Below are positions 5,429 through 37,284 of a stretch of DNA of 37,284 nucleotides, in pieces. Origin of the DNA: a virus. The notes beneath the pieces are model-generated. The model was not told the origin of the DNA. It saw only the letters and a program-made list of their open reading frames with translations, and made no database searches. Position numbers and translations under genes: made by a program. The stretch's first letter is position 1. Each line of letters begins with the position of its first letter. Where the stretch lies: the IMG/VR virus record IMGVR_UViG_3300031851_000067, positions 1-37,284 of that record; one strand, 5' to 3'.

Positions 5429-5672
5429 ATACATTATTATTTCTGAAATAAAAGAAGACATAAAGAAAACAGACGGTGGGCTGCTACTTGCAGAAAACCA
5501 CCGCGAAGATATAAGATACCGCACTGCAGATGTTATTTCTGTAGGTACAGCGGTAGAGGGTGTAAATGTAAATGACAAAATATATTATGACAGACATGCT
5601 GGACATAATATAGAAATTGGTAAAGATATTTATAAAGTTATACAAGAGCAAGATGTTATAATAGTATTGTAA
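5412..5672 (+). CDS. groES: phage-encoded co-chaperonin GroES (Cpn10)
   Basis: An 86-residue Cpn10, about ten residues shorter than typical GroES. The order of elements is that of the family: MKAIGRYIIISEI strand, a mobile loop with GGLLLAE (22-28) that should contact GroEL, DVISVGTAV strand (about 40-48), VNDKIYYDRH and the closing YKVIQEQDVIIVL. The start lies 17 bases inside the GroEL gene in another frame, so translation is coupled and stoichiometry probably linked. The stop overlaps the next start as TAATG. The order groEL-groES is reversed relative to the common bacterial groES-groEL operon. Confidence 0.93.
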   Translation: MKAIGRYIIISEIKEDIKKTDGGLLLAENHREDIRYRTADVISVGTAVEGVNVNDKIYYDRHAGHNIEIGKDIYKVIQEQDVIIVL

Positions 5673-6118
5673 TGGATAGAAGCGATTTTTTAGAGCGAGG
5701 CGAACTAAAAGTTGACTTTCTTAAATATTACAGGCTTGTGTCTCGCTGGGCTTGTAAAGAAAACAATATATCAATATCAGATTTAGAATTGTTATTTTAT
5801 TTAGACCCCATCAAATACTTTACTATAAAAGACTTTCAAAACGGTACCATGTACTACCATTGGGATAGGCAAAGATTTTATCGTTTACAGAGAGAAGAGT
5901 GGGTAGAAAAGATACATAAAGGTAACGGCCGTTTAGGCGATCACAATAAATACAAAGTATCTTTCAAAGGCAAAAGACTTATTAATAGAATATATAAAAT
6001 ATTAATAGGCGAAGAAGATATGCCTTTATCTGCTAAACGCGGTTTTGGAAAACGCAAGACTTATGTGGATAAAGTATATTCAAACGCAATAGATAAATTT
6101 AACAAAGATAAATTATAA
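5672..6118 (+). CDS. conserved phage protein, possible winged-helix fold
   Basis: A 148-residue basic protein. The segment from about residue 18 to 110 alternates predicted helices (LVSRWACKENN, ISDLELLFYL, RQRFYRLQREEWVEKIHK) with a short hairpin-like stretch before YKVSFKGKRLINRIYKIL. That is the layout of a MarR-like winged helix followed by a dimerising helix. The C-terminus is basic (KRGFGKRKTYVDKVYSNAI). It might be a phage transcription regulator or DNA-binding structural factor. It is coupled to GroES by TAATG and its stop abuts the next start (TAAATG). The fold assignment is tentative. Confidence 0.55.
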   Translation: MDRSDFLERGELKVDFLKYYRLVSRWACKENNISISDLELLFYLDPIKYFTIKDFQNGTMYYHWDRQRFYRLQREEWVEKIHKGNGRLGDHNKYKVSFKGKRLINRIYKILIGEEDMPLSAKRGFGKRKTYVDKVYSNAIDKFNKDKL

Positions 6119-9100: not shown

Positions 9101-10558
9101 GGGACTACGAATCCACAAGAAGCCTTGGATGTTATTGGATTTATACAATCGGACTCTATTATAGTTGATCAAAATAGCTTATTTATAAATTCTAATCAGA
9201 GTCCTAATGTAGGAATGGGTACAAATTCCCCTAGTGAAAGATTAGATGTATTAGGGGTGGTAAAGGCAACAGGTCTTAAGGTTAATAACAATACTATTTA
9301 TGTAGCTAACTCTGGCACAAATGTAGGAATAGGTACTACTAGCCCTTCGGTTTCTCTTGATATTAGTGATACAGATGCTATTCAAGTTCCAGCGGGAACT
9401 ACAGCACAAAGACCTACTGCTGCAAACGGTATGCTAAGGTATAATTCTGAGGATGCTCAATTTGAAGGTTATGCAGATGGTGCTTGGGGCGCAATAGCGG
9501 GCTCGGGCGGTGGAAGTGGAGAAATAGTAAAACAAACGTTTAGCGGTACTGGATCTCAAACTACATTCACGTTGGCTAACACAATTGCGGATATTGATAA
9601 TATATCTGTATATGTAAGTGGTGTTTATCAATACCCATCAAACTATACGGTAAATGGCACAGATGTTACATTTAACGCGGGTTCAATCCCCGCATCGGGT
9701 ACAAATAATGTGCATTTTATTCACACCACAACTGTCGCAAATCTAACAGAAGTCGGTTCTGTATTTGTGGACCAGTTCACAGGCGACGGCACGGCAACAC
9801 AATTTTCTGCATTAAGCATCGCGCCTACAAGCGAAAATAATACAGATGTATATATAGACGGTGTATATCAGCAGAAAAATGCTTATGGCATTGCTGGTAC
9901 AGCAATTACATTTAGTGATCCACCAGATGCTGGGGCCTATATAGAGGTTAAAACAATGGGTACTATTGCCCCTGCTGCTGTTAATGCTGTAACTACAAGT
10001 TTAGTTTCAGATTCATTTACAGCCACTGCAGATCAAACTAGTTTTACTTTAACAAATGGTACACCAAGCGCAAAAGAGCTTACAATGGTCTTTGTACAGG
10101 GCGTATATCAAGCTAAAGCAAATTACAGCTTACTAACTAACCCTACTAGAATAGTATTAACAGAAGGCGCTGAAGTTGGTGAAACAGTTGAAGTAATATC
10201 TGTATCAGGCGCAAACTTAACAACAAGCCCTGTAGCAAGTGTTAACGGTCAAACAGGAGCCGTAACTTTTGATACATATACAGCACCGACTGTATATGTA
10301 ATAAATACAAACACAACAGCTGCTGCAAATTCAGTTTATGTTTTAACAGCCAACCTTACGCTAACACTACCGGCTAGTCCAAGTTCAGGTGACTCTATAA
10401 AGATTTCAAATAGATCTGGAGTTGCAACTTGTGTACTCGCAAGGAATGGTAGTAATATAATGGGTAGCGCATCTGATTTAACATTAGATACAGCATCTGC
10501 AAGCTTTGAATTAATATACTCTGACGCAACAAACGGCTGGGTAATAATAGGACAATAA
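6119..10558 (+). CDS. large modular tail fibre protein
   Basis: A 1479-residue fibre. The N-terminus (DSTLNKLDKVVGTDSATG) probably anchors it to the virion. Repeated blocks DVTSAGSGxIITxAERTxL (about 182 and 355), NxxADWNE...FIQNKPSL and ILNKPxxL follow, as in many phage shaft regions. Around 920-1075 are four GxGTxxPxxxLDI/V turns typical of phage and trimeric-adhesin shafts. Three repeats of about 80 residues (1150-1385) contain VYVSGVYQ, VYIDGVYQ and VFVQGVYQ. The last 100 residues, with LTLTLPASPSSGDSIKI and GWVIIGQ, resemble a fibre-tip domain. It should assemble as a trimer and bind the host surface. It is followed, one base later, by three paralogous fibre genes. Confidence 0.85.
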   Translation: MARISTYDQDSTLNKLDKVVGTDSATGATKNYTIQSLMGLVNAEDLIDVFDGVSYTFKSFDHYSTNPRGIISLNTGTAVTSPFSGISRLYISALDKQGNSVGDYLDDTVNSFIRIVQKSNINAYGVFEVRDVTNYENGAYKLLTVISRTENGNIIANEDYFISNYSAVFDQDFSDDSVTEFSDVTSAGSGQIITNAERTSLNNFTANGLLHTDVVDNVTSTAADVPLSANQGKILKDLINSINTLLTSDNVDLDSLQEVVDYIEANKDTLDNLGISNISGLQAALDAKQNTEAGKGLSANDFTTALLTKLNGIAAGAQVNVKPNWTAGAGTDAEILNKPSDLTNLTLYSVTNLNDVTSAGSGAIITSAERTKLTGIAAGAEVNVQADWNEASSSADSFIQNKPSLAPSNAEQNVQSDFNETDTNSDAFILNKPNLTLKADKTTTIEVVGTANEIVVAPLGAQDLSTNRTFAVGLPNDVTIGEDLKVNETIELVNAQSSTPAFDNGIYYTTEDGHDTLHFRYHGHDLSIDYLTENIPTGILNGGVLSTNTSTTFDVAAGDGVINILNKDNSDPHPEIKKVSWSATTVTHTLGNAGDANQLNTWVYVDSSGNIQQTLTTPSPALWRSNIVLGSVIHSSNAIRFVKTFPRPSYSNGNTFAEFVEIFGPLKKSGHLLTVNSTNTLALDRAAGISFGVGRNYQIDAEEPNLVSDGATTPAFHRYSSTASGFTKDDGTAGAGYTSIDPTKYDNSGTLTTASAGQYTAQRLFHFPNNTNVIVAYYGKAEYASIDDAEKNYLLEDFQEADNTSSQAIYLGALIVKGNATDLGNSSQAKILTGGIFRSLSATNLGGVAIDSAINDLTDVNITSVANDEILQYNSSTGNWENQAVISGTGVANKIAIWSGASALTQDTNLHWDTTNDRLGIGTSSPTSALHISDTTPEIYLEDSNNTADAKLLANNGNLGLFSDVNNEHASSIIYFNVDGSEKMRIDSSGKVGIGTTNPQEALDVIGFIQSDSIIVDQNSLFINSNQSPNVGMGTNSPSERLDVLGVVKATGLKVNNNTIYVANSGTNVGIGTTSPSVSLDISDTDAIQVPAGTTAQRPTAANGMLRYNSEDAQFEGYADGAWGAIAGSGGGSGEIVKQTFSGTGSQTTFTLANTIADIDNISVYVSGVYQYPSNYTVNGTDVTFNAGSIPASGTNNVHFIHTTTVANLTEVGSVFVDQFTGDGTATQFSALSIAPTSENNTDVYIDGVYQQKNAYGIAGTAITFSDPPDAGAYIEVKTMGTIAPAAVNAVTTSLVSDSFTATADQTSFTLTNGTPSAKELTMVFVQGVYQAKANYSLLTNPTRIVLTEGAEVGETVEVISVSGANLTTSPVASVNGQTGAVTFDTYTAPTVYVINTNTTAAANSVYVLTANLTLTLPASPSSGDSIKISNRSGVATCVLARNGSNIMGSASDLTLDTASASFELIYSDATNGWVIIGQ

Positions 10559-11144: not shown

Positions 11145-11740
11145 TGGGTAATTTAACAGATTTATTTCCAGCCCCCGCTTCTAATTCAATATTAGAAACC
11201 TTAGTTGGGGTTGCAGACGGAAGGTCTGTTACAGTACCTTCTGGAACTTACACGTTTGGTAACGTTACGGCAAGACAAACTTTAAGTACAAGTTATACTG
11301 ATGTAACAGGAAGCAGTATTACATATACACCTCCTGCAGAAGCAAATTATGTTTCTTATAAGTTTTTTTACAAGTCTGATTCTCGCGATATAAATTACGG
11401 GTCATCTGGAATACACAATATTGCTTTGTATTTAGACGGAACCCGAGTTGCTCGCGCACAAAAAAGCGTAGCTGGCAATTACAGTGGCAGCCACTCTAAT
11501 AATCACGCATCATTTACACAATATGTAGAATTTGTTTTTGATTTAACAGCATACAGCGATGATATATCAAACGGGAAGCTCGCGGGGTGGACAACCGCTA
11601 AAGAAATAAAAGTAATGGCAAGAGATCATAATTCTCCATATTATAGAGCTACCATTCATACAAATATTTGGAGAGATGGAACTGCTGCTGGGGAATTTAC
11701 TTATTATCAGCCTATAATTAAAATAACAGCATTTAAATAA
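11144..11740 (+). CDS. fibre-tip paralogue 2
   Basis: A 198-residue protein with the same framework as its neighbours: MGNLTDLFPAPASNSILETL at the start, DGRSVTVPSGTYTFGN, YTPPAEANYVSYKF, FVFDLTAYSDDISNGKLAGW, then IKITAFK at the end. The His/Ser-rich loop (NYSGSHSNNHASF) corresponds to the His-rich loop of paralogue 1. Its start overlaps the upstream stop (TAATG) and its stop overlaps the next start, so all three copies are translated together. It differs from its neighbours mainly in the loops, consistent with different ligand choice. Confidence 0.7.
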   Translation: MGNLTDLFPAPASNSILETLVGVADGRSVTVPSGTYTFGNVTARQTLSTSYTDVTGSSITYTPPAEANYVSYKFFYKSDSRDINYGSSGIHNIALYLDGTRVARAQKSVAGNYSGSHSNNHASFTQYVEFVFDLTAYSDDISNGKLAGWTTAKEIKVMARDHNSPYYRATIHTNIWRDGTAAGEFTYYQPIIKITAFK

Positions 11741-12318: not shown

Positions 12319-12621
12319 ATGATTTCATATACATATCAAATATTGTCGCTAAAAAAACATAACGATAATTTTTTAAACAATATAAAAAGTTTTAAAATAC
12401 GTATTACCGGTACAGAGGGCGGCGAATCGCATTATGTAGATGATGAAATATTATTAGACATGCCTTCTGAAGGTTCTTTTATAGAATACCAAGAGTTAAC
12501 AGAAGAAAATTTAGTTAACTGGTATAAAGACGGTATAAGAGAAAATTTTGCTCAAAGCGAAATACAACAAAAATTTAATTTAAATAAAGGTACTGAAACA
12601 ATTAGTTTTCCCTGGTTATGA
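12319..12621 (+). CDS. small fibre-associated protein (DUF7936-like)
   Basis: A 100-residue acidic protein. It has an N-terminal strand-rich half (SYTYQILSL, KSFKIRITGTEGG) then FIEYQELTEENLVNWYKDGI, a low-complexity Gln/Lys-rich helix and a terminal SFPWL. The late LTEExxxxWxxxxI and Pro-Trp near the end recall a short domain (probably DUF7936) found in many phage tail-fibre regions. The family call is from memory. Its stop overlaps the next start as ATGA (12618-12621). Confidence 0.6.
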   Translation: MISYTYQILSLKKHNDNFLNNIKSFKIRITGTEGGESHYVDDEILLDMPSEGSFIEYQELTEENLVNWYKDGIRENFAQSEIQQKFNLNKGTETISFPWL

Positions 12622-15600
12622 TAGGAACATCACAATTAATTAATACGTTTTCACGTCCGTGTTTTACAGATACGACAGATATATTTAAAGACGGAAGTGG
12701 AGTAGCCCTGCATGGTTTAGATTATGATGCTTCAGATGCTGGGGGTGCTTCAGGTAAATTTGGTGAAGCTGCTATATTTAATGGGAGTAGTTCTGTTGTA
12801 ACAATAAATAGTACTTTTGATTTTAGTTCAAGTTTTTCAATTTCAATGTGGTTCAACGCTGATACTTTACCTTCCGGTACTTATATACCATTGTTTTTTA
12901 CAGATGGGTATGGAGGACCTAGCTCAGATTATGGAATTGCTTTATATTTATACGGTAATACTATAAAACCATGGATAGACAGGCAAGGTACATATACTAA
13001 CATTTTTACAGCAGGAACGCTGTCTACAGGCACGTGGTATCATGTAGTGCTAAATAGAGACTATAATTCTAAGTGGGAATTGTTTTTAAATGGCTTATCT
13101 CTAGGAACTTATACAGGAGTTGGTTTAACTGATAACTACACTCCCAGTTCTTTTAGTACAATAGGAAAGCATTCTACTGCTAGTATGTGGTTTGACGGAA
13201 AAATAGACCAAGTAAGAATATTTAATACAGCGCCTATACAATCTCAAGTTACCCAATTATTTCAAGAAAACAGTTCAACTGTAGGTACACATTTATTTGG
13301 GTGTGTTGCAAACTATAATCTTGATGGTAGTGCAAAAGAGTCTATGGGTACCACGGCTTATGATGGTACAGAAACAGATATAACATATAGATATGACGGA
13401 ACCCCGACAGCAGTAGACTTCGGCGTTGGAGGCAAATCAAACTATGGCGCAAGGTTTAATGGAAGTAGTAGTTATATAAACCTTCCAAATTTAGGTACAG
13501 ATTTGTCAGGTTCAAATACAAGAACTTTATCAGCTTGGGTAAAGCTTGATTCAAACCCTTCTGTTTATTCTGCGGTTGTATCTTATGGTGGGGCTGGGAG
13601 TTTGCAAAGTTTTGGTATATATATGTCAAGTACAGGCACACCAAGAATAAGTTATTATAATTTAAATTGGGATACAAGTACATCCTTAACTTTGGGTAAT
13701 TGGTATCATATAGTTGGTATATATAAAGGTGGAAATGTTGAAACATCAACTAATACAGAATTATATATTAATGGACAAATACAAACATTAACTATAACAA
13801 ATAGTCTCAATTTGACAGGCGCAATTAATACATCTAATACAAATTATGCTATTGGTTATTATAGAGCAAGTCCAAGTGGGTCTTATTTTAATGGTGACAT
13901 AGACCAAGTAAGGGTATTCAACAAAGCGTTATCATCTGCAGAAGTTGGTAAACTTTATGGTAATGGTGCAGGAGAAATAGCTTGTGCTTATACATCTACT
14001 ACAGGCATAGTAAACTATCCTTCAGATACTACACCAGTCGCTTATTACAAACTTGACAACAGTTCAGAAGACTATTCTACTGGAGGTAACGATGGAACAG
14101 CCACGAACGTTGAGTATAAGTTTGGAAGGTATGGTCAAGCTGCGGTGTTTAATGGGAGTAGTAGTGCTATTGTATTGCCAAATGATATTCTAGATACAAG
14201 TGAACATTCTATTTCTTTATGGTTCAATTTAGATGACACGAATGGTATACAGACTGTTCTTGAAATGGATTATGAAAATAGAATTTTATTTAGGGCAGTT
14301 TCAACTGATAGTAATTTAGCTTATATAGGAAGTGTTGGATATTTTGACCACGGAATTCCTTTTTCTGCTGGTCAGTGGTATCATTTAGTAATTACTTTTA
14401 GTGCAGGTAATCCTTTTAAAATTTATGTAGATGGTGTGTTATCTTATACAGGAGCAAATTCAAACATTAAATCGCAAGATAATGATAATATTTTAGGCGC
14501 AAGCAATAGTTCAGGTGCTAATGGAGTGGATGGCAAGATTGACCAAGTACGCATCTATTCAACTGCCCTTACAAGTAGTCAAGTAACCGAACTATACAAC
14601 GAAAAGCCTGAAGTAGATACATCTAACTTTAAGGCTGTATTGTATGAGGGGAATGGTGGAACTCAATATATTTCTAATGTAGGAATGGACTTGGAAACTG
14701 ATGGCGGTTTAGTTTGGATAAAGAACAGAGACGTTGCTGATGCTCACGTTTGGTTTGATTCTGTAAGGGGAGCAACAAAATATATAATGAGTAATTTACC
14801 AGCACTTGAAACTACACAGGCTAATACTTTAGACTCATTTGAGGCTAATGGTTTCTTTTTAGGTTCTGACCCAACAGGTGGTGCTATGAATGCCAACAAC
14901 GAAAGTTATGTTAGCTGGGTATGGAAAGGCGGCGGAGAGGCAGTCCAAAATAATGATGGTACTATTCAAGGTGCTAATTGTATGGTTTCTGCTAATACAG
15001 AAGCGGGGTTTAGTATTGTGAAGTATACAGGAAATAGTACTGCAGGGGCAACAGTAGGACACGGACTTTCTTCTGCTCCCGACTTAATTATAGTTAAACT
15101 TTTAGATTCAACTAAAGATTGGTATGTGTTTTCTGAACTATTAGGACAAAGTGGTGGCGAATATCAATACCTTGAGCTTAATACAAACGATGATGCAACA
15201 ACATTTGTTTCACAAGAGGTTTGGAATGGAGATTTGCCCACATCGGATTTATTCACACTTACAGGGGGTAGTGCTGATAATTTAACCAATAATGACTATA
15301 TAGCCTATTGTTGGCATTCAGTTGCAGGTTATAGTAAGATAGGGAGTTATCAGGGGAATGCAGGAACTAAAACCATATATACAACAGATGATGATACATC
15401 AACAGGAAGTGGAGGTTTTGAACCATCTTTTGTCTTAATGAAAAATTTTGAAGATGAAACCAATTCGCATTGGGTTGTTTTAGATAATGCAAGAAGTACG
15501 ACTAATCCAAGAGAAGATGAATTGTATCCTGGTCTACCCAATGCAAACCAAGACCTTAATAGGCAAGTTAACTTTGTGTCTAATGGTTTTCAATTGACAA

Positions 15601-15656
15601 GTAGTTCGTACGCTAATAGAAGTGGTATAGATTATATATATATGGCATTTAAATAA
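12618..15656 (+). CDS. lectin-like tail protein with three LamG-type domains
   Basis: A 1012-residue protein. Three concanavalin A-like (LamG/laminin-G type 3) domains occur at about residues 50-215, 235-450 and 470-660. Each has FSISMWF- or LSAWVKL-like strands, WYHxV, a YxNG or YVDG turn and a closing DGKIDQVRIF-like strand with GDIDQVRVF and GKIDQVRIY as variants. The C-terminal third (from about 680) contains SYVSWVWKGGG, MVSANTEAGFSIVKYTG (about 787-803), HGLSSAPDLIIVK and a final YIYMAFK, matching a common phage tail-tip domain. LamG folds bind glycans, so receptor or capsule binding is likely. It starts inside the upstream stop and ends in a TAATG overlap. Confidence 0.85.
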   Translation: MIGTSQLINTFSRPCFTDTTDIFKDGSGVALHGLDYDASDAGGASGKFGEAAIFNGSSSVVTINSTFDFSSSFSISMWFNADTLPSGTYIPLFFTDGYGGPSSDYGIALYLYGNTIKPWIDRQGTYTNIFTAGTLSTGTWYHVVLNRDYNSKWELFLNGLSLGTYTGVGLTDNYTPSSFSTIGKHSTASMWFDGKIDQVRIFNTAPIQSQVTQLFQENSSTVGTHLFGCVANYNLDGSAKESMGTTAYDGTETDITYRYDGTPTAVDFGVGGKSNYGARFNGSSSYINLPNLGTDLSGSNTRTLSAWVKLDSNPSVYSAVVSYGGAGSLQSFGIYMSSTGTPRISYYNLNWDTSTSLTLGNWYHIVGIYKGGNVETSTNTELYINGQIQTLTITNSLNLTGAINTSNTNYAIGYYRASPSGSYFNGDIDQVRVFNKALSSAEVGKLYGNGAGEIACAYTSTTGIVNYPSDTTPVAYYKLDNSSEDYSTGGNDGTATNVEYKFGRYGQAAVFNGSSSAIVLPNDILDTSEHSISLWFNLDDTNGIQTVLEMDYENRILFRAVSTDSNLAYIGSVGYFDHGIPFSAGQWYHLVITFSAGNPFKIYVDGVLSYTGANSNIKSQDNDNILGASNSSGANGVDGKIDQVRIYSTALTSSQVTELYNEKPEVDTSNFKAVLYEGNGGTQYISNVGMDLETDGGLVWIKNRDVADAHVWFDSVRGATKYIMSNLPALETTQANTLDSFEANGFFLGSDPTGGAMNANNESYVSWVWKGGGEAVQNNDGTIQGANCMVSANTEAGFSIVKYTGNSTAGATVGHGLSSAPDLIIVKLLDSTKDWYVFSELLGQSGGEYQYLELNTNDDATTFVSQEVWNGDLPTSDLFTLTGGSADNLTNNDYIAYCWHSVAGYSKIGSYQGNAGTKTIYTTDDDTSTGSGGFEPSFVLMKNFEDETNSHWVVLDNARSTTNPREDELYPGLPNANQDLNRQVNFVSNGFQLTSSSYANRSGIDYIYMAFK

Positions 15657-26380: not shown

Positions 26381-27085
26381 ATGGTAAGCATAGACAACGT
26401 TTATAAAACAGTATTAAACATACTTAATAAAGAAAATAGAGGTTATATTACGCCAAGGGAATTTAATTCACTAGCTAACCAGGCTCAAAATGAAATTTTT
26501 GAAGGTTACTTTTCCTTAAGAAACTATGTTGTTTCCAATGATTCCGACTATTCGGATATTAGAAAAAACGTAGAAGAAAAAATAGCTTTATTTGAAAATG
26601 AAGAAACAATAGACGTTGGTACTTTTTCTAACGCAGCAGGCAACACTACTTCAAGCTATTATGCTTACCCTACGAATTTTTATAGGCTAGGAACAGTATC
26701 AGCGAATGCTATACACGCTACAGAAGTTTCAAGTCAACAGATATTATATCTCAACAGGGCTCCGCTAACTAAACCGACTGTAAGCAATCCCGTTTACGTT
26801 AGGCACGAAGGAGGCGTAGTACTTTACCCAGGGACTGGAATAACAAGTTTGCTTATAAACTATATTAGAAAGCCAAACACTCCTAATTGGGTTGGGGGTA
26901 CTGCTAACGGGCAAGTTGTTGCTAGCACAACAGATGCAGCTTATCAAAATTTTGAGCTACATGCTTCAGAAGAGTCTGAACTTGTGGTCAAAGTGTTAGC
27001 CTATGCCGGTGTAATAATAAGAGCTGCAGATATAACTCAAGCTGCAACAGCTAAAGAACAACAAATTATACAATCTGAACGATAA
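26381..27085 (+). CDS. head-tail connector/ring protein 1 (putative)
   Basis: A 234-residue protein beginning MVSIDNVYKTVLNILNKENR, then GYITPREFNSLANQAQNEIF (about 23-42). That pattern occurs in a protein encoded after the capsid in crAss-like and other marine phages, thought to form a connector or tail ring. The middle is beta-rich (YYAYPTNFYRLGTV, NPVYVRHEGGVVLYPG) and the end is helical and charged. No enzyme motif. Its stop forms TAATG with the next gene, suggesting a matched partner. The ring role is from position and similarity by memory. Confidence 0.65.
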   Translation: MVSIDNVYKTVLNILNKENRGYITPREFNSLANQAQNEIFEGYFSLRNYVVSNDSDYSDIRKNVEEKIALFENEETIDVGTFSNAAGNTTSSYYAYPTNFYRLGTVSANAIHATEVSSQQILYLNRAPLTKPTVSNPVYVRHEGGVVLYPGTGITSLLINYIRKPNTPNWVGGTANGQVVASTTDAAYQNFELHASEESELVVKVLAYAGVIIRAADITQAATAKEQQIIQSER

Positions 27086-28038
27086 TGGCAGAATCAAAAA
27101 AAATATATACTAGTCAAGGATATTATGCAGACTTTGAAAATGACGTTGCTAATACGCCGGCTGATTTTAAAGGGTTAGGATATTACAGCAGAACAAGTTT
27201 AGAGGACGTTATAAATAACTTTATTGTTGCTTATATTGGTGAAGACAAAGCTCTTTCTAAAGTGCCAAGGTATGAAGTGGACTTTTGGGCCCAGAGAGGT
27301 ATGCAAGAGTTTAGCTACGATATATTGCATAGCGAAAAAAGTGTTGAAATAGAACTTGGTGATGCTTTGCAATTTCCGCTGCCTCAAGATTATGTTAACT
27401 ATGTAAAAGTTTCGCATGTAGGCAATGATGGGCGTAAAAACGTTTTACTTCCAGTAAGAACAGCTGGAAACCCTTCAACCCCAATACTACAAGACGGAAA
27501 TCATAACTTTTTGTATGATGGAGATGGAGAGGTACAAACAGCTGATCAATCCACTTCTACCGACAGGTTTCAAGATCCTAATAATCCTGCTAATAGGGCT
27601 CAATCAGCTCAAGATTACTATAACAATAATTATAACGACGATAATTTTTCTTATTTTAATAAAAGATATGGTAGTAACCCAGAAAACATGACTGGCGCTG
27701 GCACATTTTTTATAGATACAGTAAGAGGTATTGTGTTCTTTGATGGAACATTTGCGGGAAGGCCTGACAATTTAATTGTTTTAGACTATATTTCTGATGG
27801 CATTGCTGATAACGGAGATCTATCTAAGGTTTATGTGCCAAAGCTCGCTGAGGATGCTTTATATGCTTATATGCTATATAATTTGTCAAAGCTAAGACCT
27901 TCAAGCGCGCAGCTAGCTCCTTTATATAAAAAAGAAGCAAGTGCTAAAATAAGAAATACAAAAATAAGACTTTCAAACTATAAATCCGAAGAAATGGCTC
28001 AAGTATTACGAGGCAAGGCTAAATGGATTAAACATTAA
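27085..28038 (+). CDS. head-tail connector/ring or tail-tubular protein 2 (putative)
   Basis: A 317-residue protein. It has an N-terminal helical region (LEDVINNFIVAYIGEDKALSK, in part; RYEVDFWAQRGMQEFSYDI), then a beta-rich centre (ALQFPLPQDYVNYVKVSHVG), an Asn/Asp-rich linker (about 170-205) and FFIDTVRGIVFFDGTFAGRP. The end has PKLAEDALYAYMLYNLSKLR and a basic tail. The order after ring protein 1 and the shape suggest a second ring/tail-tube component, as in the conserved structural block of crAss-like phages. The start is coupled to ring protein 1 by TAATG. Confidence 0.65.
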   Translation: MAESKKIYTSQGYYADFENDVANTPADFKGLGYYSRTSLEDVINNFIVAYIGEDKALSKVPRYEVDFWAQRGMQEFSYDILHSEKSVEIELGDALQFPLPQDYVNYVKVSHVGNDGRKNVLLPVRTAGNPSTPILQDGNHNFLYDGDGEVQTADQSTSTDRFQDPNNPANRAQSAQDYYNNNYNDDNFSYFNKRYGSNPENMTGAGTFFIDTVRGIVFFDGTFAGRPDNLIVLDYISDGIADNGDLSKVYVPKLAEDALYAYMLYNLSKLRPSSAQLAPLYKKEASAKIRNTKIRLSNYKSEEMAQVLRGKAKWIKH

Positions 28039-28048
28039 ATAAAATTAA

Positions 28049-30841
28049 ATGGCGGAAAGCAAAAGAACATTCCAAGCCGCAAGGATGGATAAAGACATAG
28101 ACGATAGGTTATTAAAATCAGGACAATATAGAGATGGTCTTAATATATCTATTGACACGTCTGAAGATGCTAACGTAGGTGCCGTAGAAAACCTCAAAGG
28201 AAATGAATTGATATTAAATCAAGACATTTATGGGTTGTCTTCTGCTACAAATCCAAATGCAAAAGTAGTAGGTAGCTACTCTCACCCTGAAGAAGAAAAA
28301 ATTTATTATTTCGTTACAGGTGATAAGGCAGATGGTATTTTTGAACACGACATTAAAGCTAATAAAGTAAACACTATAGTTATAGATAGCTTAGTACCAA
28401 ATTTAGCAGACACTAAGGAAATTAAATGTAGTGATATTTCAGCAGCGGGGTATATTGCACAAGATGGAACCATATCTGTTAGTTCTAAATTAGGTGATAC
28501 AAAGGTTACAACTAATAAATTTGCTGTAAATGCTACTGGGTCAGGGGTTCCTAAGTCAATTACTACAGAAACAGAAGTACCTAGTATATATAAAAACGGA
28601 GGGGATAAAGTGGTTTGTACAATAGAAGCAATTCAACCTTCTATTACCGCTCCGGATGTTGTAACTAAAGGCCCAAGCAATATAACTGATGTTTCCGCAA
28701 AAGTAAATGGATTTTTAACAAACGACAGTGTAAATGTTACTTCTCAGGGGTTTTATTATGGATATAAAACAGACGGTAGTATTTTAACACTAGATGAATT
28801 AAAAAATGGTGGCACGGGTGTTACTAGGTACACTATAACAATTTCATCTCCTAATATAAAAAATGATTTTAGCGGTGATTTAGTAAATTTAATTGCAGAC
28901 AAACAGATTAGCTATGCCGCATTTGCTACAAATGCTGTAGGTACTACTGACGGCGAAATAAAAAATCTAACAACTGCGAGTACGATATATTCAATAACAG
29001 GCTTAGGATTCAACAATACTTCTATAAGTAATTTAGGTGGGGTTGAAGTTTTTGAAGTTACAGGAACACCTGGTGCAACTTATACGCTGGCTGGTTCTTC
29101 CGGCAGCGGTAGCGATGGTGCTACCCCCCCATCTGGCACACACACAATTGGTAGTAGTGGATCAAATGCACACAGTATAACAATATCAGCACAAACAACG
29201 GGAGCATCGGCAAGGAATCCTGCTGTAAGTGTAATTGTTTCTGGTAGTACAGTTTTTTTACCTATAAACTTGACGTCTTTTGACACTATATCACAGGCTG
29301 CAGGAGCTGCACAAACATACACGTATACATTAAATTTAGCAAGCGCTGCTGGTAATAATGCTACGTTAAAAACAACACCGTTTGAAAACGGGGCAGCGTA
29401 TACTGTATTCAGTATAACAGAAGTAGCGGGATATTCTAATACGGCTGAGGAGACATTTTATATATTCCCCGATGCGGGTTGGCAATATGATCAGGCTCCT
29501 GTACTTATATCAGGACTGCCTAGCTGGGCCTCGGTACTAGTCGTTGGGTTTGATCAAACAAATTCAGCGGGTCACACATATTTAGAAATTGCAATAAATA
29601 TAAATAATACACCTTCAAATAACGATACAGCAAGTGCAACAGTAACTGCACCAGCACGTCAAGTAACAACAGCATGGTCGCAAGGGCTTTGGGAGTCAAC
29701 AGCTAATCCTTCTTTAGATAGAAGCCCCACTGCGGATAGTGGTTTTGTTATTTACGGTACTGGTACTTTTGATAAAAATAGTGCTGGGTATCAAAATCAT
29801 CTTACAGACACTATTACAGCGAGTAACGATCAATTTTTTGATGGAGTAAACTCTACTACTAGTGATAGCAGTTACGGCGGAGATTTAATAAACACAGTAA
29901 TAACACCAGATAATGGAACATATCCTTCAAGCGAAAACGGCACTGTTGATTTAGACTTTACAGTTACCATACCATCTAGTACAAGAAAAAGTAATATTTA
30001 TACACAAAGACCTATTAGTGTAGATTTTGCTGGAGGCTCTTCTAGTCTAGTTATAACTAGTGGTGCATATACAAGCACAGCGGGCGTAAGCCACTTTGGC
30101 GGAACTAAAATCTTTAGAGTTACTGGAGATATAGGGGCCACTTATAGGCTTAGAGGCGTTTTTACTTCTGGCAATGGAACTTATACACTAAACAGTTCGC
30201 CTTTTGATCACAGTCTATCTGTAGGGGCTAACGCCGCATGTAATGCGGGTAGTAGAACTATAAGTACAACTCTAACGCCTACTGGCTCTACGGTTTTACA
30301 AGGCGGTGCGGCAGAATTTGCGTCTAGCTCCTTACAAGCAACAGCGGGTAATGTATCTTGGGCTCCTAGCACTATAACCGTTTCAGGTAGTCTTACACAT
30401 ACAAACCCTGGAAGTACTATAGTTACAATAGGTGGAGTAAATTATTTTACCCCAGGCGCTAACTTTACAGCTACACTTACAGTTAGCGGCTATCAACAAA
30501 GTCCGAACAGGGGCGACTATGTCCCATTTACTCAAATCCAAAGCGGAGGATTAGGGGGTGTTCAGCAAAATGGATTTAATACCACCAACGCCGCTGAGGG
30601 TGCCCATTCGGGTTCAGGAAATATGAGTTATAGCAACGGGGGTTGGTTTTCGGGCAATTGGCCAAATCCAAAAAATATAAATGGAAGTTATAGTATTAAT
30701 GTAACCTTAGGGGGAGGTACTAATTATGCTTCTATGAGGTATCAACTTTTTTCTGGGGCGCCGATTAACGCTCACAACTATGATCCCTGTGTTACCTCTT
30801 GGAATGGCATTAAAGTTTGGAGTGGATATACATACCCATAA
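28049..30841 (+). CDS. large tail protein, N-terminal third of a split stabilisation-type protein
   Basis: A 930-residue protein. Residues 1-115 contain FQAARMDKDIDDRLLKSGQY, YRDGLNISID, EDANVGAVENLKGNELI and PEEEKIYYFVTG, the recognisable start of the large tail (stabilisation) protein of crAss-like phages. After that the chain turns Thr/Ser/Gly-rich. A fibronectin-III-like module lies at about 215-310 (TDVSAKVNGFLTNDSVNVTS, GFYYGYKTDG, ISYAAFATNAVGTT). The remainder is Ig-like beta structure with repeated short strands. An A/T-rich leader (AAATAAAATTAA) precedes the start. It should be part of the short tail, with outward domains that may add stability or adhesion. Confidence 0.75.
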   Translation: MAESKRTFQAARMDKDIDDRLLKSGQYRDGLNISIDTSEDANVGAVENLKGNELILNQDIYGLSSATNPNAKVVGSYSHPEEEKIYYFVTGDKADGIFEHDIKANKVNTIVIDSLVPNLADTKEIKCSDISAAGYIAQDGTISVSSKLGDTKVTTNKFAVNATGSGVPKSITTETEVPSIYKNGGDKVVCTIEAIQPSITAPDVVTKGPSNITDVSAKVNGFLTNDSVNVTSQGFYYGYKTDGSILTLDELKNGGTGVTRYTITISSPNIKNDFSGDLVNLIADKQISYAAFATNAVGTTDGEIKNLTTASTIYSITGLGFNNTSISNLGGVEVFEVTGTPGATYTLAGSSGSGSDGATPPSGTHTIGSSGSNAHSITISAQTTGASARNPAVSVIVSGSTVFLPINLTSFDTISQAAGAAQTYTYTLNLASAAGNNATLKTTPFENGAAYTVFSITEVAGYSNTAEETFYIFPDAGWQYDQAPVLISGLPSWASVLVVGFDQTNSAGHTYLEIAININNTPSNNDTASATVTAPARQVTTAWSQGLWESTANPSLDRSPTADSGFVIYGTGTFDKNSAGYQNHLTDTITASNDQFFDGVNSTTSDSSYGGDLINTVITPDNGTYPSSENGTVDLDFTVTIPSSTRKSNIYTQRPISVDFAGGSSSLVITSGAYTSTAGVSHFGGTKIFRVTGDIGATYRLRGVFTSGNGTYTLNSSPFDHSLSVGANAACNAGSRTISTTLTPTGSTVLQGGAAEFASSSLQATAGNVSWAPSTITVSGSLTHTNPGSTIVTIGGVNYFTPGANFTATLTVSGYQQSPNRGDYVPFTQIQSGGLGGVQQNGFNTTNAAEGAHSGSGNMSYSNGGWFSGNWPNPKNINGSYSINVTLGGGTNYASMRYQLFSGAPINAHNYDPCVTSWNGIKVWSGYTYP

Positions 30842-30874
30842 TAAATAGCTAGAATATAATAATATTAAACAAAT

Positions 30875-33800
30875 ATGGCAAGCAAAATATTAAATTTTAG
30901 CCCAGATAGGTTAATTACGGGCATCAACATAGTAGATAACATGATGTTCTATGTAGACAACCAGAATGAGCCTAAAAAAATAAATATTGAAAAATTTAGA
31001 GGGGATGCTACTGAAGGTGAATTTAAAGAAATACCTGTTGATCATTCTACTGGAACTACATATATTTATAATAGACCTTTTGAAGAAAGAGATATAACTG
31101 TAATAAAGGATCATCCAATTAATTCTATTAACACTGTTAAATATACAGAAAACTTCGGACCTGAAGAAGAAGATTTATCAATAGAAGAGGTTGAAGCTGG
31201 TGATTCTAACGGGATAGATGAGAATGGTGATGTTATTGAAGACATTGCACAAGGTATTGCAGATATGCAGTTTATGGCTAGCTTTACTTATAAAACACAA
31301 TTTCAAGGTGTTTTATACAAAGGTAACGGCACATTAACTGAAGCTGGTTTTATTTGGTCTCACAGCGAAAGCTCATTAGAGGGGTTAATAAACGGCGTAG
31401 GAAATACTTCCTATAAAATAGAAGCCGATGATATTGGTTCGGGAAATAATACTGTAATTATAAATAAAATAATACAATCTACGGATTCGTCTAGCCCTAC
31501 TTATGATGCTAATTTAACGCCTGGAGATATATATGTAGTTTCTTTTGGTAAGAAAAAAGGACTTGATTCTAGATTTTATAGTGAGGTAAGAAAAGCTAAA
31601 ATAAAAGTTGACACTGTTAGCTGCACTGCTCCCAGCGGATTATCATCTTCATTTGAAATTGTTGGGAATGATGTAAACTTTACCGCTAATTTAGAAGATG
31701 ATGGCGGGGAGCAAATTATTCAATCTGGGTTTTATATATCTAGTGGAGCTGTTAACAATAATGACGGTGCCCCCACTATACAAGAGCTTGTAGACGAAGG
31801 TATAAAAATTTTAGCTAGCGCCGAGTCTGATTTAGAAAGAATAACGGCAAGTACTGGAGTAGCTCCTAATAAAATATTTTACTATATTCCTTTTGTTACA
31901 ACTAAATGTGGCACCGTATACGGTAACTCTTTAACTTTAGTGGATACAGTAGATACCGGTGAAGTTGAAAATAAAGGCGAGAAAAAAATAGCCGTTTCCA
32001 CCTTACAAGCGGGAGCAGCCTCCGGGGGAGACTATGGTTATGATGGAGATATTGTTGCAGGGTTTGCGTTGGGGCATATTAGCGAAAATAATCAGCCTAA
32101 TGGTAACCCAAAAATAGCGGAAGTTGGTTTTTATATTGACACAAGTGGCTTAACTAAAGAAGAAATAATAACCTCCACATTTACAAACAATTCTGCAAAT
32201 GGTGGTAAAACAATTAAATACCCAGCTTCATCAACCACCCTTACGCCTAATGTGCATAAAGATGGATTGGATGGAGGGGATGATTTAGAGCCAAACGATT
32301 TTAATTATGACAAAGGGGGTAGTTTTTATTTAAGCACAAAAAATAAAATTGCTTATGCTCCGAATCAAGAGTATAGTGTAATAGCTTACGCTATTGACGA
32401 AGAGGGAAATGAAAGCATAGGAAAAATTATAACAGTAGTTTCTTCTGGAAAATCAACTGGACCTAAAAACGTTCCATTAACCCCTGCAGAAGAGCCACAT
32501 TGGTCTTCTGTTTATTCCGGAACTGAGCCCTCTTTTAGCGTGGCTAATAGAGAATACTTTTTTAAAGATGAAACAACAGCTGGGTCGATAGACACCGATG
32601 GTATTAGAACCGGATTAGTAAGCGCAGACATAGATGTTCTTAGCTTAGGTGATATTATTACTTATAATGTTAATTCTGACGGAACTTATACGACCGAAGG
32701 TGGTATAAATGATATAGGTTTTGTTTTTTCTGCGCCAGTAACCAACGAAGAAATTAGTGGGGTTAACGCTCAAACAGGAATTTTTGGTGTGCCGCACTGG
32801 GAGGTGTACAACAACGGCACTAGCATTCCTAAAACAGTAGACCCTGATAATACTTTTAGAGTTGTTGTAGGTAAAGATGATTTTACATTTACCCAACGCT
32901 ATACTGATGAAGGAAATCCAATACCAGGTGGCGGAACATATGAATTAGATAACCCTGTAGAATTATACAAAATGACAAAAGAAATGTATAATTCTTTGGT
33001 AGAAAACGGATATAATCCTAGTGCATTAAATTTAACTTATACTCCGTTTATAGTTGACCATACAAACCGAATACATTACGGGCATACGCAATACGTAGCA
33101 GGCCCAAGAAATAATTTTAACCCTACCCAAGATATTTCAGAGCTAGGAAAAAATTATCCACAGCGGGGTATCTTAGGAGCCGCGCCTATTATTAACGAAA
33201 ATTCAAACTCTAAAACAATAAATGATATTACTGATACAACTGCAACTTTGTTGGGTAAGTTATCAAACCATGGCAAGCCTGTTTCAGAATTTGGATATTA
33301 TATTTCAAATACAAAACCTTCAAATGTAACCGTAAATAGCAACGGGCATAGCGAAGGTTTAGACACCTGGGCGGCGACTGCTACAAAAGTTGTGGCAACA
33401 AATTTAACAACAGCACAAGCAAATGCGCATATAAATCAAAGCGTAAACCCATTTATAGATTTTGAAGTTGATGTTACAGGATTAACGGCTGAAACAGAAT
33501 ATTATATTGTACCTTTTTCAAAACCAGTCCAGACAACGTCAAACATAGGAGCAGAAGGCCCAGAGAATGATGGGCAAAGCTTAAAAGAATTTGTAAATAG
33601 AACTAAATACGGTTCTATTAAAGATTTTTTTACAAATAAAGCAGCTTTAACATCAGTAGACGTTGAACCAGATGTTGTGATATTAGACATATCTAAAAAT
33701 CAAGACTTAACAAAAACAAGTGTTAATCTTACTGGCGCTGCTGTTAAAAAATCAGGTAATTACGCTATAACTAAAGTTGGGTTTTACGCAAAGCCCGCTA

Positions 33801-34903
33801 CTGAATTTTCAAATCCATTTTCAGATCAGGCTGGTAATGCAGCTACTATGGCAAGCTCTACAAATAGACTTGAAAAAGAAATTATTTTAAATAATCCTTT
33901 TGATTCAGAAGTAAACGAAGAAGATGAATTTAAAGCGGAATTAATAGGTATTGATACTGTAGAATATTACGTAGCTTCATTTGTAGAAACAAATACTAAC
34001 GGAAATATTGAAACTTTTATTTCAGATTACATATCTGTAGATAATTCAGTAAATGCTTCAATAAATCCATCTTTATTGGTAAAAAGTTTTCGTATCGTAG
34101 GAACAACAGGTGGCTATAACTACAAAAAATACCACCAAGACAGAGTTGAATTAAGTTTTGAAAATGAACATCTAAGAGCACAAATAATAAACTATGGATT
34201 TTATTATTTAGCTAATGATTCTTTAAATCAACCTAGTGATTCTGCAGAGTTTATGGAAGAATATAATTCCCCTAGCACAGGCACTGTTACGGCTGTAGAA
34301 TCAAGTAGCGGTTCCCCTATTTATGTTAATCAATCATACTCTACTAAGTGGGATAGGTTTACTCCTGAGGTAATTGCTGACCGGGATGCTGGCTTTAGTA
34401 GATATTACGTTTTGGCGTTTTTTGAAACGGTTGATAACAAGTTTGTTTTTTCAAACGTTGATCAGGTACATAGGCCAAAGCCTTTTAATTTTTCTACGCC
34501 TTACCATGACCTTGCTAATCTTTGGACAAATTCAATATTTTCAGTAAATAAACTTGAGTTTGGTAGCATGAGGGGTAGCAGTACAATCTATGAGCTAACA
34601 TTAATGGTTGTGAATACTACAATGATATTACCACAACGTCAAGCTAGTAGGGTAGAAGTTGGTATTAATTCAGCTGCTATACCAAATGGAGATTATGAAA
34701 TAAAAACCAAAAAAATCAGTGGAAGTAACCAAGTAACAGCATTTCCTGGAAAGATTATTAAGGAATCATATGGTATACGTATTCACGTAATGAAACCACA
34801 AGCTAACTTTGGCGGAATGCGAAGTTTTTGGGAAATTTGCTTAGTTAAACCAGGTGGGGGGCAAGAAGTAATCTATGATGTTCTTCCTATAGACATTAAT
34901 TAA
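30875..34903 (+). CDS. giant tail protein, middle third with about seven FN3-like modules
   Basis: A 1342-residue protein. Residues 1-85 hold ILNFSPDRLITGINIVDNMM, FYVDNQNEPKKINIEKFRGD and RPFEERDITVIKDH, which in related phages directly continue the preceding protein. The rest is an array of about seven diverged fibronectin-III-like modules. Each has a GFYIS/GFxY-type strand followed by Y-Y/V-x-x-F/Y, at about residues 155, 285, 417, 613, 806, 968 and 1107. Examples: ITDTTATLLGKLSNHGKPVS then GYYISNTKP, and AITKVGFYAKPAT. No enzyme motif or transmembrane region. It probably forms large outward domains of the tail. Confidence 0.75.
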   Translation: MASKILNFSPDRLITGINIVDNMMFYVDNQNEPKKINIEKFRGDATEGEFKEIPVDHSTGTTYIYNRPFEERDITVIKDHPINSINTVKYTENFGPEEEDLSIEEVEAGDSNGIDENGDVIEDIAQGIADMQFMASFTYKTQFQGVLYKGNGTLTEAGFIWSHSESSLEGLINGVGNTSYKIEADDIGSGNNTVIINKIIQSTDSSSPTYDANLTPGDIYVVSFGKKKGLDSRFYSEVRKAKIKVDTVSCTAPSGLSSSFEIVGNDVNFTANLEDDGGEQIIQSGFYISSGAVNNNDGAPTIQELVDEGIKILASAESDLERITASTGVAPNKIFYYIPFVTTKCGTVYGNSLTLVDTVDTGEVENKGEKKIAVSTLQAGAASGGDYGYDGDIVAGFALGHISENNQPNGNPKIAEVGFYIDTSGLTKEEIITSTFTNNSANGGKTIKYPASSTTLTPNVHKDGLDGGDDLEPNDFNYDKGGSFYLSTKNKIAYAPNQEYSVIAYAIDEEGNESIGKIITVVSSGKSTGPKNVPLTPAEEPHWSSVYSGTEPSFSVANREYFFKDETTAGSIDTDGIRTGLVSADIDVLSLGDIITYNVNSDGTYTTEGGINDIGFVFSAPVTNEEISGVNAQTGIFGVPHWEVYNNGTSIPKTVDPDNTFRVVVGKDDFTFTQRYTDEGNPIPGGGTYELDNPVELYKMTKEMYNSLVENGYNPSALNLTYTPFIVDHTNRIHYGHTQYVAGPRNNFNPTQDISELGKNYPQRGILGAAPIINENSNSKTINDITDTTATLLGKLSNHGKPVSEFGYYISNTKPSNVTVNSNGHSEGLDTWAATATKVVATNLTTAQANAHINQSVNPFIDFEVDVTGLTAETEYYIVPFSKPVQTTSNIGAEGPENDGQSLKEFVNRTKYGSIKDFFTNKAALTSVDVEPDVVILDISKNQDLTKTSVNLTGAAVKKSGNYAITKVGFYAKPATEFSNPFSDQAGNAATMASSTNRLEKEIILNNPFDSEVNEEDEFKAELIGIDTVEYYVASFVETNTNGNIETFISDYISVDNSVNASINPSLLVKSFRIVGTTGGYNYKKYHQDRVELSFENEHLRAQIINYGFYYLANDSLNQPSDSAEFMEEYNSPSTGTVTAVESSSGSPIYVNQSYSTKWDRFTPEVIADRDAGFSRYYVLAFFETVDNKFVFSNVDQVHRPKPFNFSTPYHDLANLWTNSIFSVNKLEFGSMRGSSTIYELTLMVVNTTMILPQRQASRVEVGINSAAIPNGDYEIKTKKISGSNQVTAFPGKIIKESYGIRIHVMKPQANFGGMRSFWEICLVKPGGGQEVIYDVLPIDIN

Positions 34904-34909
34904 TTATAC

Positions 34910-37284
34910 ATGGCAGAAAAAATAAAACCTTTTGAAAAAATATTCCCCTATATAAGCTATAGGTGGAAATATGACGACGGTGAATACTCGCCTTATGCTC
35001 CATTTACGGAAGTGCAGTTTGTATCTAAATCTATAGACTCTGTTAATGATAGATATGAAAAAGGGTTTAATATTTTCATGGTTAACGACATTGAAAATAT
35101 AGTATTAAATAATATTCCAAAAGGAAGAGAAGATGTTGTTGCCGTGGATGTCCTATACACAGAGTCTATATCCTCTACGGTATATATATTAAAGACCGTT
35201 GAGTTAGATCCTGGCGATAGGGGAAATGGATTTTTAAATCCTATCATAATATCTAAAAGAGCTTTAGGTATTGCTTTACCAGATTCTGAATTGACTAGGC
35301 AATTTGATAGTGTTCCTTTAACGGCTAAAGCCCAAGAATTTACCGCAAATAGATTAATGTATGGAAATTACTTAACTAAGTTTGATCAGGGTAAAAACGA
35401 CTTAGGCGGTGATGGATTTAAAATAACTACTGGAATTGCAAAATTTCAAGATCCTATTTCAGGGCCGTCTGTAAAAACAAGCAGAACCTATGATGTGGGG
35501 GTTGTTTATATGGATAAATACGGAAGACAAGGCGGTCTATTATCTCAGAAAGCAGGTTCTGGAGATAGTTCAGGTTCTTCTTTAATAAAAACTAAATTTA
35601 CATATGATGCAAGAGTAAAGCTTGCCGCTAGAATTAACAGCGACGCCCCACCTTGGGCTGTTCATTATAAATATTATATAAAAGACGTTTCTACGGACTT
35701 TTATAACATGACCGCTTTTAATACTTACTTAGACGGTGAAAGTGGAGATGATGAATCGGCTAATGTTTACTTACAATTTGACTCTAAAGACAGGAATAAA
35801 ATAACAGAAGATTCTTTTTTAATTCCAAGAAGAGACAAAATGAATCTAGCTAACCCTAATGGGTCTGTTATAACTGAGCTATCTAGAGTGCCGGTATTGG
35901 CTATTGAAAACGAAGCTCCTGATGTTGTTAAAGGACAGGTTAACGAAAGAGTAGTGGTGCCTATAAATCTTAGTATTGTAGATGAAATGGGTCAAATAAT
36001 GGATCACACCTCTAATTTCGGCGATGGCAATGATTACAGGCAAAGTCCAAATCATTCTACCGTAATAGGTGATACTGAAATTGCTATAGGCGACACTAAT
36101 AATGGTTTTGGGATTATTATATCAAAATTAAATTCGTATATAAAAGAACAAGACCCTACTGCCTCTACAGTTTTTGAAATAGGGCAAGGTATAGTGAGCA
36201 CGCAACTAACTGATCAAATTATAGATGTAAGTGGCTATGGAGAGCGATTAGTAGCTAGGTTTGAGTCTAGTAATCCAGATGATTATAATACAGATCTTTG
36301 CTTAGTTGATTCGATTAGATTCACTACTAACGATAGCGTTAAAAAAAGAAATGTTTTAATATTTACTATTTCAACTAGATTAGACGACAATGGTAGCCCC
36401 CTGACGGTAGCATCTGCTGTTCCAGGATTAAGTAAGGGAGGCCATCAAATGGGTGGGGGAACAATTACAGAAGACTTTAAATTTTATAAGCTAGGTTTAT
36501 CAGAAACTGGACAGAAAAAACTAAAAGGTTCTTTTTTCGTAAAAGTTCCAAGAAGAACAGATGCTGATTCTTTTCCATCACTTCCTATAGGTCAAACAGA
36601 GTTAGATGAAAGAGGTGATATTGAGGAATTAAAATTTATAGATTTTGAAACAGAAGCTGGAGATGATTCTAATTTAAATTTATATTGGGAAGCTTCTAAA
36701 GTATTTTCAATAGAAAATGATCATGGTAAAGATAACGTTATACCTTGGACAAACTGTATAGCTACTTTGGGTGGACAAACACAAGAATCAAGTGCTACAA
36801 TACCAAATAAAATATATTTAGAGTCAATAAAAATACAAGATAAATTTAATTCTACATCTTTAGTAAAAGGTATTAGAGTAAATACACCAGAAGCTAATTA
36901 TGCTCAAGAGCGTAGAGAACACGGCTTAATATTTTCGGGCTTATATAATTCTAGGACAGGTATCAATGAACTAAATAAATTTAATTTAGCAGACGGAATA
37001 ACTAAAGAACTAGAGCCTAATTATGCGGGCATTCAAAAGCTGCATGCTTTAGATACTAATTTATTAGCTTTTTGCGAAGATAAAGTATTTAAGATATTAG
37101 CTGACAAAGACGCGTTGTTTAATGCTGACGAAGGCGTTAATGTAACCGCAACAAATTTAGTTTTAGGGCAAGCGATGGCTTATCAAGGTGACTACGGAAT
37201 AAGTACACACCCAGAATCTTTTGCTTATTTTGGTAATAATATATATTTTACTGATGCAAAAAGGGGTGTTGTAATGCAGCTCAC
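34910..37284 (+). CDS. tail stabilisation-type protein, last third (partial at right edge)
   Basis: A frame starts at 34910, six bases after the upstream stop, and stays open for 791 codons to the edge. The beginning, FEKIFPYISYRWKYDDGEYS then PYAPFTEVQF, and the last visible block, HPESFAYFGNNIYFTDAKRG, are family motifs of the large crAss-like stabilisation protein. Between them the chain is beta-rich with DVGVVYMDKYGRQGG and PPWAVHYKYYI. In related phages these motifs follow the segments in the two preceding genes within one chain. The C-terminus lies outside the window. Confidence 0.78.
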   Translation, partial: MAEKIKPFEKIFPYISYRWKYDDGEYSPYAPFTEVQFVSKSIDSVNDRYEKGFNIFMVNDIENIVLNNIPKGREDVVAVDVLYTESISSTVYILKTVELDPGDRGNGFLNPIIISKRALGIALPDSELTRQFDSVPLTAKAQEFTANRLMYGNYLTKFDQGKNDLGGDGFKITTGIAKFQDPISGPSVKTSRTYDVGVVYMDKYGRQGGLLSQKAGSGDSSGSSLIKTKFTYDARVKLAARINSDAPPWAVHYKYYIKDVSTDFYNMTAFNTYLDGESGDDESANVYLQFDSKDRNKITEDSFLIPRRDKMNLANPNGSVITELSRVPVLAIENEAPDVVKGQVNERVVVPINLSIVDEMGQIMDHTSNFGDGNDYRQSPNHSTVIGDTEIAIGDTNNGFGIIISKLNSYIKEQDPTASTVFEIGQGIVSTQLTDQIIDVSGYGERLVARFESSNPDDYNTDLCLVDSIRFTTNDSVKKRNVLIFTISTRLDDNGSPLTVASAVPGLSKGGHQMGGGTITEDFKFYKLGLSETGQKKLKGSFFVKVPRRTDADSFPSLPIGQTELDERGDIEELKFIDFETEAGDDSNLNLYWEASKVFSIENDHGKDNVIPWTNCIATLGGQTQESSATIPNKIYLESIKIQDKFNSTSLVKGIRVNTPEANYAQERREHGLIFSGLYNSRTGINELNKFNLADGITKELEPNYAGIQKLHALDTNLLAFCEDKVFKILADKDALFNADEGVNVTATNLVLGQAMAYQGDYGISTHPESFAYFGNNIYFTDAKRGVVMQL

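Follow-up and report, generated by a model that had tools for sequence, protein, structure and literature searches.

The muzzle protein is highly conserved in crAss-like phages, in which it is believed to keep the genome sealed in until infection. Muzzle is its structural name (PMC10172136), tail stabilisation protein being the older one (PMC7886860). In crAss001 it is gp44, one chain of 1371 aa that forms a hexamer with a seven-bladed propeller at the tail tip, whereas the split muzzle described below is known from sequence; Ig-like domain 1 of gp44 (residues 163-292) lies between blades 2 and 3, and length variation of the protein has been ascribed to insertion into IG2 and the crass domain (PMC10172136). 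The closest annotated single-chain relatives of the locus under study are gp097 of Cellulophaga phage phi38:1, one chain of 1324 aa, and the corresponding protein of the Flavobacterium elemo phages (PHROG_14478). How, then, does a protein of this kind come to be spread over three genes?

The window analysed, which is the whole IMG/VR virus record IMGVR_UViG_3300031851_000067 (37,284 bp), carries three co-directional ORFs on its plus strand: gene 1 (28049-30841, 930 aa), gene 2 (30875-34903, 1342 aa) and gene 3 (34910-37284), which is truncated by the record end after 791 aa and measures 1044 aa at full length in the close relative L001. Directly upstream, on the same strand and ordered as in intact relatives, lie two tail genes (26381-28038; phrog_14543 and phrog_13977, and synteny) that probably encode ring/adaptor proteins; following these, downstream of the TerL, portal and capsid genes, the three genes occupy the position of a muzzle gene. 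The preliminary description of this DNA had placed three consecutive genes at 28049-37284, had quoted five peptides from them and had proposed that the gene ends rebuild one familiar chain. The ORFs are there, each of the five peptides is found (at residues 5-20 and 42-55 of gene 1, 16-35 of gene 2, and 15-27 and 768-786 of gene 3), and the profile and BLASTP matches to the three products are contiguous and not due to chance. In calling the chain the 'stabilisation protein' of crAss-like phages it named the right family, though by the older annotation and not by the structural name.

Against PHROG_14478, a structural-protein profile of 1474 aa, gene 1 residues 5-122 match positions 2-114 (E 1.8e-18) and a 125-aa N-terminal fragment of gene 2 matches positions 109-161 (E 0.005), full-length gene 2 giving no match to this profile; gene 3 is found at E 4.5e-72, with its best stretch at positions 861-1074. 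The same order emerges from BLASTP with phi38:1 gp097, residues 1-107 of which fall on gene 1, 108-160 on gene 2, and 196-481 and 816-1030 on gene 3. The gene 2 stretch is also clearly aligned by intact relatives such as L016 (49% over 43 aa, 4e-11), and beyond residue 48 gene 2 stays in register with intact muzzles (E 1e-4 to 4e-7). Four core HMMs used for typing loci (A for gene 1, B for gene 2, C1 and C2 for gene 3) are complete and in order across the three genes: A 1-113 in gene 1, B 1-45 at gene 2 residues 2-46 (E 1.9e-26), and C1 1-317 and C2 1-174 in gene 3; the C-terminus of the muzzle, missing here where the record ends, is present in L001. By these matches, the core of one family is shown to run in sequence through three genes, each with a start and a stop of its own, and no loss is detected from gene 1 to gene 3. 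The preliminary description had reckoned its idea lost if the genes matched separate, non-contiguous families or were each a full-length member; instead all three align with adjoining parts of a single family, and no one of them is a full-length member. The trait of a standard muzzle that is absent is the single polypeptide chain, its place being taken by three ORFs with their own stops and starts.

At the level of Pfam families, PF25731 (crAss_MUZ) matches gene 1 with 22.4 bits, under the cutoff of 27, and PF25729 (crAss_MUZ_C) is found at residues 904-944 of L001 gene 3 with 26.0 bits (E 1.3e-5), just under its cutoff of 27. PF25729 is matched by intact relatives, and the intact L016 passes the cutoffs of both families, spanning break 1 continuously in PF25731 (residues 7-159 = profile 5-149; family E 8.9e-15). 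The core also resides in one gene, at the same genomic place, in phi38:1, elemo, phi19:3 and other phages. A PDB sequence search with two intact muzzles returned no muzzle, and an NCBIfam search returned no matches. Judged by sequence, then, the three genes together are a crAss-type muzzle protein, and a split variant rather than a standard member.

Where has the chain been cut? The MAFFT alignment with crAss001 gp44, phi38:1, elemo and L016 puts break 1 near gp44 residues 107/110 and break 2 near 175/183, both positions being approximate. Taken with the published limits of Ig-like domain 1 of gp44, these positions would set break 1 approximately where propeller blade 1 gives way to blade 2, and break 2 approximately after the first strand of Ig-like domain 1. 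The gene 1 core (residues 1-114, 28049-28390) would thus comprise the N-terminal strands and blade 1, as indicated by HMM A, by omega and by the structural model, in which strands at 72-78, 84-90, 94-101 and 106-114 form a four-stranded blade-like unit (pLDDT ~62). The gene 2 core (residues 2-81, 30878-31117) would hold, by the same alignment, the strands of blade 2 together with DITVIKDHP, presumed to be the first strand of Ig-like domain 1, and gene 3, by PHROG_14478 and HMMs C1 and C2, the rest of that domain and the remaining muzzle core. The similarity to gp44 itself is weak (E 2e-4 for A and 1.6e-7 for C2), and gp44 sat in the training set of B; the AlphaFold model of gene 3, built from 12 sequences, has a mean pLDDT of 38.

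Past the core, gene 1 continues for ~816 aa and gene 2 for 1250-1296 aa, close to the figures of about 815 and 1250 residues given at the outset. The accompanying picture of extensions attached at each break needs amending: they are present, but on the upstream fragment only and not on both sides. In gene 1, residues 124-312 (28418-28984) are modelled as confident Ig/FN3-type folds (pLDDT mostly 76-94), namely an Ig/FN3-like domain followed by an FN3-type domain (200-312), and residues 199-311 match gp130 FN3 (Z 11.8, rmsd 2.0 A, 93 residues); the Foldseek and VIA searches with this model mainly probed residues 124-416, so that only their Ig/FN3-type matches were informative and the lack of propeller matches carries no weight. 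The gene 2 extension is made up of about seven units of roughly 110-215 aa each (31265-34450), which when compared with each other by hhalign proved mutually related in the case of r1, r2, r3 and r5 (92-95%) and unrelated in that of r4; r2 is in addition related to the gene 1 FN3 domain (90%), and Pfam fn3 matches the extension weakly only (E 0.23). The distal part of the gene 1 extension (28985-30838; no confident structure prediction) belongs, by alignment and by HMMs of two module types, to type A, which is shared with L001-L003 and L009, type B being found in L004, L010, L012, L013, L049 and others. With type B, and not with type A, goes a gene of 69-84 aa of unknown family between genes 1 and 2 (L004:5577-5825, with equivalents in L010, L012, L013, L049-L051, L053, L054 and L056). 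Since L009 (type A) and L013 (type B) are sisters on the muzzle tree, it is suggested that the distal modules have been exchanged between phages. Purifying selection acts on all parts of the split genes, with omega reaching 0.11 in the gene 1 core (pairs with measurable divergence), 0.13 in the gene 2 core (close pairs; 0.26 in the most distant pair) and 0.07-0.55 in the extensions. These comparisons show each upstream fragment bearing a faster-evolving C-terminal extension that is predicted to be rich in Ig/FN3-like domains; a search of 50,697 records of named phages gave no match to the extensions.

The preliminary description had proposed looking for the same split in relatives, and it recurs there. 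Some 130 loci were gathered by scans that took as query gene 3, the core of gene 1 or an alignment of the tail gene upstream, the last of which samples independently of the muzzle; the break or breaks occur in 20 other distinct IMG/VR contigs (in 19 of them all three genes can be seen, while one ends after gene 2), and A-B-C1-C2 lies in one ORF at 68 loci. The complete genome MW202828, which among named records has the closest terminase (61.5%), has an intact muzzle. Gene 3 of the split contigs is as little as ~51% identical to that of this record, and the split state is therefore not a recent accident. L058 and two near-identical contigs (three samples) have gene 1 separate and B, C1 and C2 in one ORF. 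Six longer records, none of them known to be complete, each have one copy of A, B and C and no second muzzle. A scan of genome contigs yielded a single contig, L143 (PBPJ01000015.1), with the gene 2/gene 3 break; it is filed under a Candidatus Woesearchaeota MAG from the Red Sea and is probably phage DNA placed in the wrong bin.

In phylogenies built from the core segments the three-gene loci group as one clade (FastTree 1.0; aLRT 97.1), L058, with break 1 only, is its sister (FastTree 1.0; aLRT 100 for the joint clade), and intact single-chain muzzles surround the whole. The tree of the upstream tail gene recovers the same joint clade at 93.3, the inner three-gene clade being weak there (40.8). 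The breaks are thus shown to be inherited, and since L058 is sister to the three-gene clade, the most likely order by parsimony is a stepwise one, with break 1 arising before break 2. The intact muzzles around the clade, the sister with break 1 alone and the completeness of A, B, C1 and C2 together support gene fission, so that the original proposal of a tail protein divided by fission gains backing from phylogeny as well as gene order. A separate clade of 11 contigs (L085, L094, L102, L106, L108, L117-L120, L126 and L133) encodes its muzzle in two genes, the single break being at a third site that separates C1 from C2 in the IG2/crass-domain region; its supports are 0.93 and 87.5, and it is recovered in the upstream-gene tree at support 0. 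Splitting would accordingly seem to have occurred more than once. Within the three-gene clade, L005-L007 have one more break, inside the gene 1 extension, which forms two ORFs of 208 and 369-376 aa (L005:3815-5573, L006:3830-5588, L007:3694-5473) parted by TAA and a short A/T-rich linker, the second opening with an ATG of its own, and up to five genes cover the region in these contigs. The muzzle of Maribacter phage Panino (L036, PP540027.1) is annotated as two genes through a frameshift at ~11260-11290; phi38:1 residues 2-951 and 951-1322 are matched gap-free in two frames, and a sequencing error rather than fission is a possible cause.

Why should the chain have parted at these points? The break sites are shown to carry insertions in intact relatives too: of the 98 loci whose A and B share a chain, 18 have at least 50 extra aa at break 1, the intact loci L137-L141, a group retrieved by an L058 query, have ~100 residues there within their single chain, and at break 2 the spacing varies between 36 and 1491 aa. 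In all three-gene loci the core starts as early as residue 2 of gene 2 and residues 7-8 of gene 3, the extra sequence being always C-terminal on the upstream gene of each break. The simplest history would be that a loop took up an insertion, at the downstream edge of which a stop and a new start then arose. That the insert became the extension is inferred only from its position, the extensions showing no homology to the inserts of intact relatives at E 0.001.

The reading that we favour, with a probability of about 0.75, is that of a crAss-type muzzle, i.e. the nozzle or gate of the tail tip, which has undergone fission at two sites and whose three chains assemble together while their extensions serve as free arms. 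Blade 1 and the N-terminal strands would come from gene 1; gene 2 would add blade 2 as well as the first strand of Ig-like domain 1, gene 3 would supply everything else, and the chains would come together in trans in each of the six propeller subunits closing the channel. That all three belong to one muzzle subunit is argued because the cores are complete and constrained, their order is conserved and the six longer records hold no second copy. With the core link cut, the inserted domains would become free C-terminal arms at the tail tip, able to lengthen and be swapped without disturbing the gate, and would probably make host-surface contacts; their outward display is inferred from fold type and evolutionary rate. 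We also lean, less firmly, towards a broader proposition, namely that the gate propeller takes its blades from three polypeptides and that fission at insertion loops is recurrent (in at least two lineages and at three muzzle sites), each time freeing exchangeable arms at the tail tip.

It is conceivable, by contrast, that genes 1 and 2 encode separate tail-tip or receptor-binding proteins for which the muzzle piece is only an anchor, gene 3 alone closing a smaller propeller. The extensions make up most of both proteins (~88% of gene 1 and 93-97% of gene 2) and evolve fast, as this would predict; yet constraint is strongest in the cores of genes 1 and 2, from which no core HMM position is missing, and gene 3, the core of which starts at residue 7-8, lacks the A and B segments and has no N-terminal replacement, so that we regard the idea as unlikely. 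Could the chain instead be rejoined after expression, by self-splicing introns, inteins or readthrough of stop codons? Some gut crAss-like phages do commonly carry introns and inteins (PMC7886860), and all three genes share one frame in this record and in L001. In most relatives, however, the frames differ, and junction 1 (30839-30874, +) consists of a TAA followed by several more in-frame stops and an A/T-rich leader before the ATG, while at junction 2 (34901-34909, +) the TAA is followed by 6 nt and the ATG of gene 3. Moreover, this record and seven relatives have no Rfam match, the tested genes, including the gene 1 and gene 2 proteins, have no Hint/intein or homing-endonuclease domain, and the extension continues the reading frame of the core and is constrained at the protein level. 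On frames, in-frame stops, Rfam and domain searches, the intron, intein, readthrough and frameshift readings were all rejected, and rejoining is considered highly improbable.

An assembly error or a decaying gene might be suspected from the fact that the locus was found in a single metagenomic record and that a frameshifted muzzle does exist in the deposited Panino genome. Against this stand the same break or breaks in the 20 other contigs, with gene 3 down to ~51% identity, the purifying selection on all parts and the tidy junctions, every stop at the breaks of the three-gene and L058 loci being TAA, followed by A/T-rich sequence and an ATG. For the clade, the 20 contigs refute an assembly error, and as a whole this explanation retains a negligible chance.

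Several other genes of the record and its relatives deserve mention. The window encodes a full-length GroEL chaperonin (3830-5428; PHROG_5725, Pfam Cpn60), a large tail-fibre-like protein in which DUF4183 and a phage fibre repeat occur (6119-10558), and a protein combining three LamG-like lectin domains with DUF7483 (12618-15656), the last two being likely further host-contact proteins. The two upstream tail proteins vary widely in length in the intact relatives L018, L024, L025-L028 and L032 (582 aa in L025 vs 234 for one of them), and L022 holds two copies of one of them (5574-7200).

A natural three-chain muzzle reveals which parts of the protein tolerate cutting, and the existing lineages line up as a series (intact, with insertion, with one break, with two breaks, with a different break) along which a route leading from inserted domains to fission of the gene can be tested. 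It also represents a natural design in which variable surface domains are displayed on a conserved gate. For annotation, genes 1 and 2 would be labelled as unknown, and comparisons of muzzle length would go wrong for split viruses. The open literature on muzzle, nozzle, split and gene fission, which leaves most subscription papers outside its coverage, contains no description of a split muzzle, and the three-gene muzzle may accordingly be taken as a new form of a known protein of which we found no published description.

How does this form compare with those already described? With crAss001 gp44 (PF25731/PF25729; PMC10172136) it shares the core segments, their order, the gene neighbourhood and a length that varies by inserted domains; the split lineage differs in being spread over three genes and in having insertions and gene breaks also at the boundary of blade 1 with blade 2 and inside Ig-like domain 1. 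The phi38:1 and elemo proteins match genes 1-3 in order and follow the same upstream genes, but each is encoded by one gene, with little or nothing extra at break 1, while at break 2 only 36-39 aa separate B from C1. The T7 gp12 nozzle and P22 gp10 likewise form a hexameric gate at the tail end on a propeller, which for P22 is predicted only; both are single chains (PMC6702177). The nearest parallel for a propeller completed by another chain is found in Sec13/Seh1, in which an open propeller is closed by a blade of the partner via a domain invasion motif (PMC9646525). This is an analogy only, Sec13/Seh1 being unrelated eukaryotic coat proteins that receive one blade in trans, the seventh, and not two as proposed for the split muzzle.
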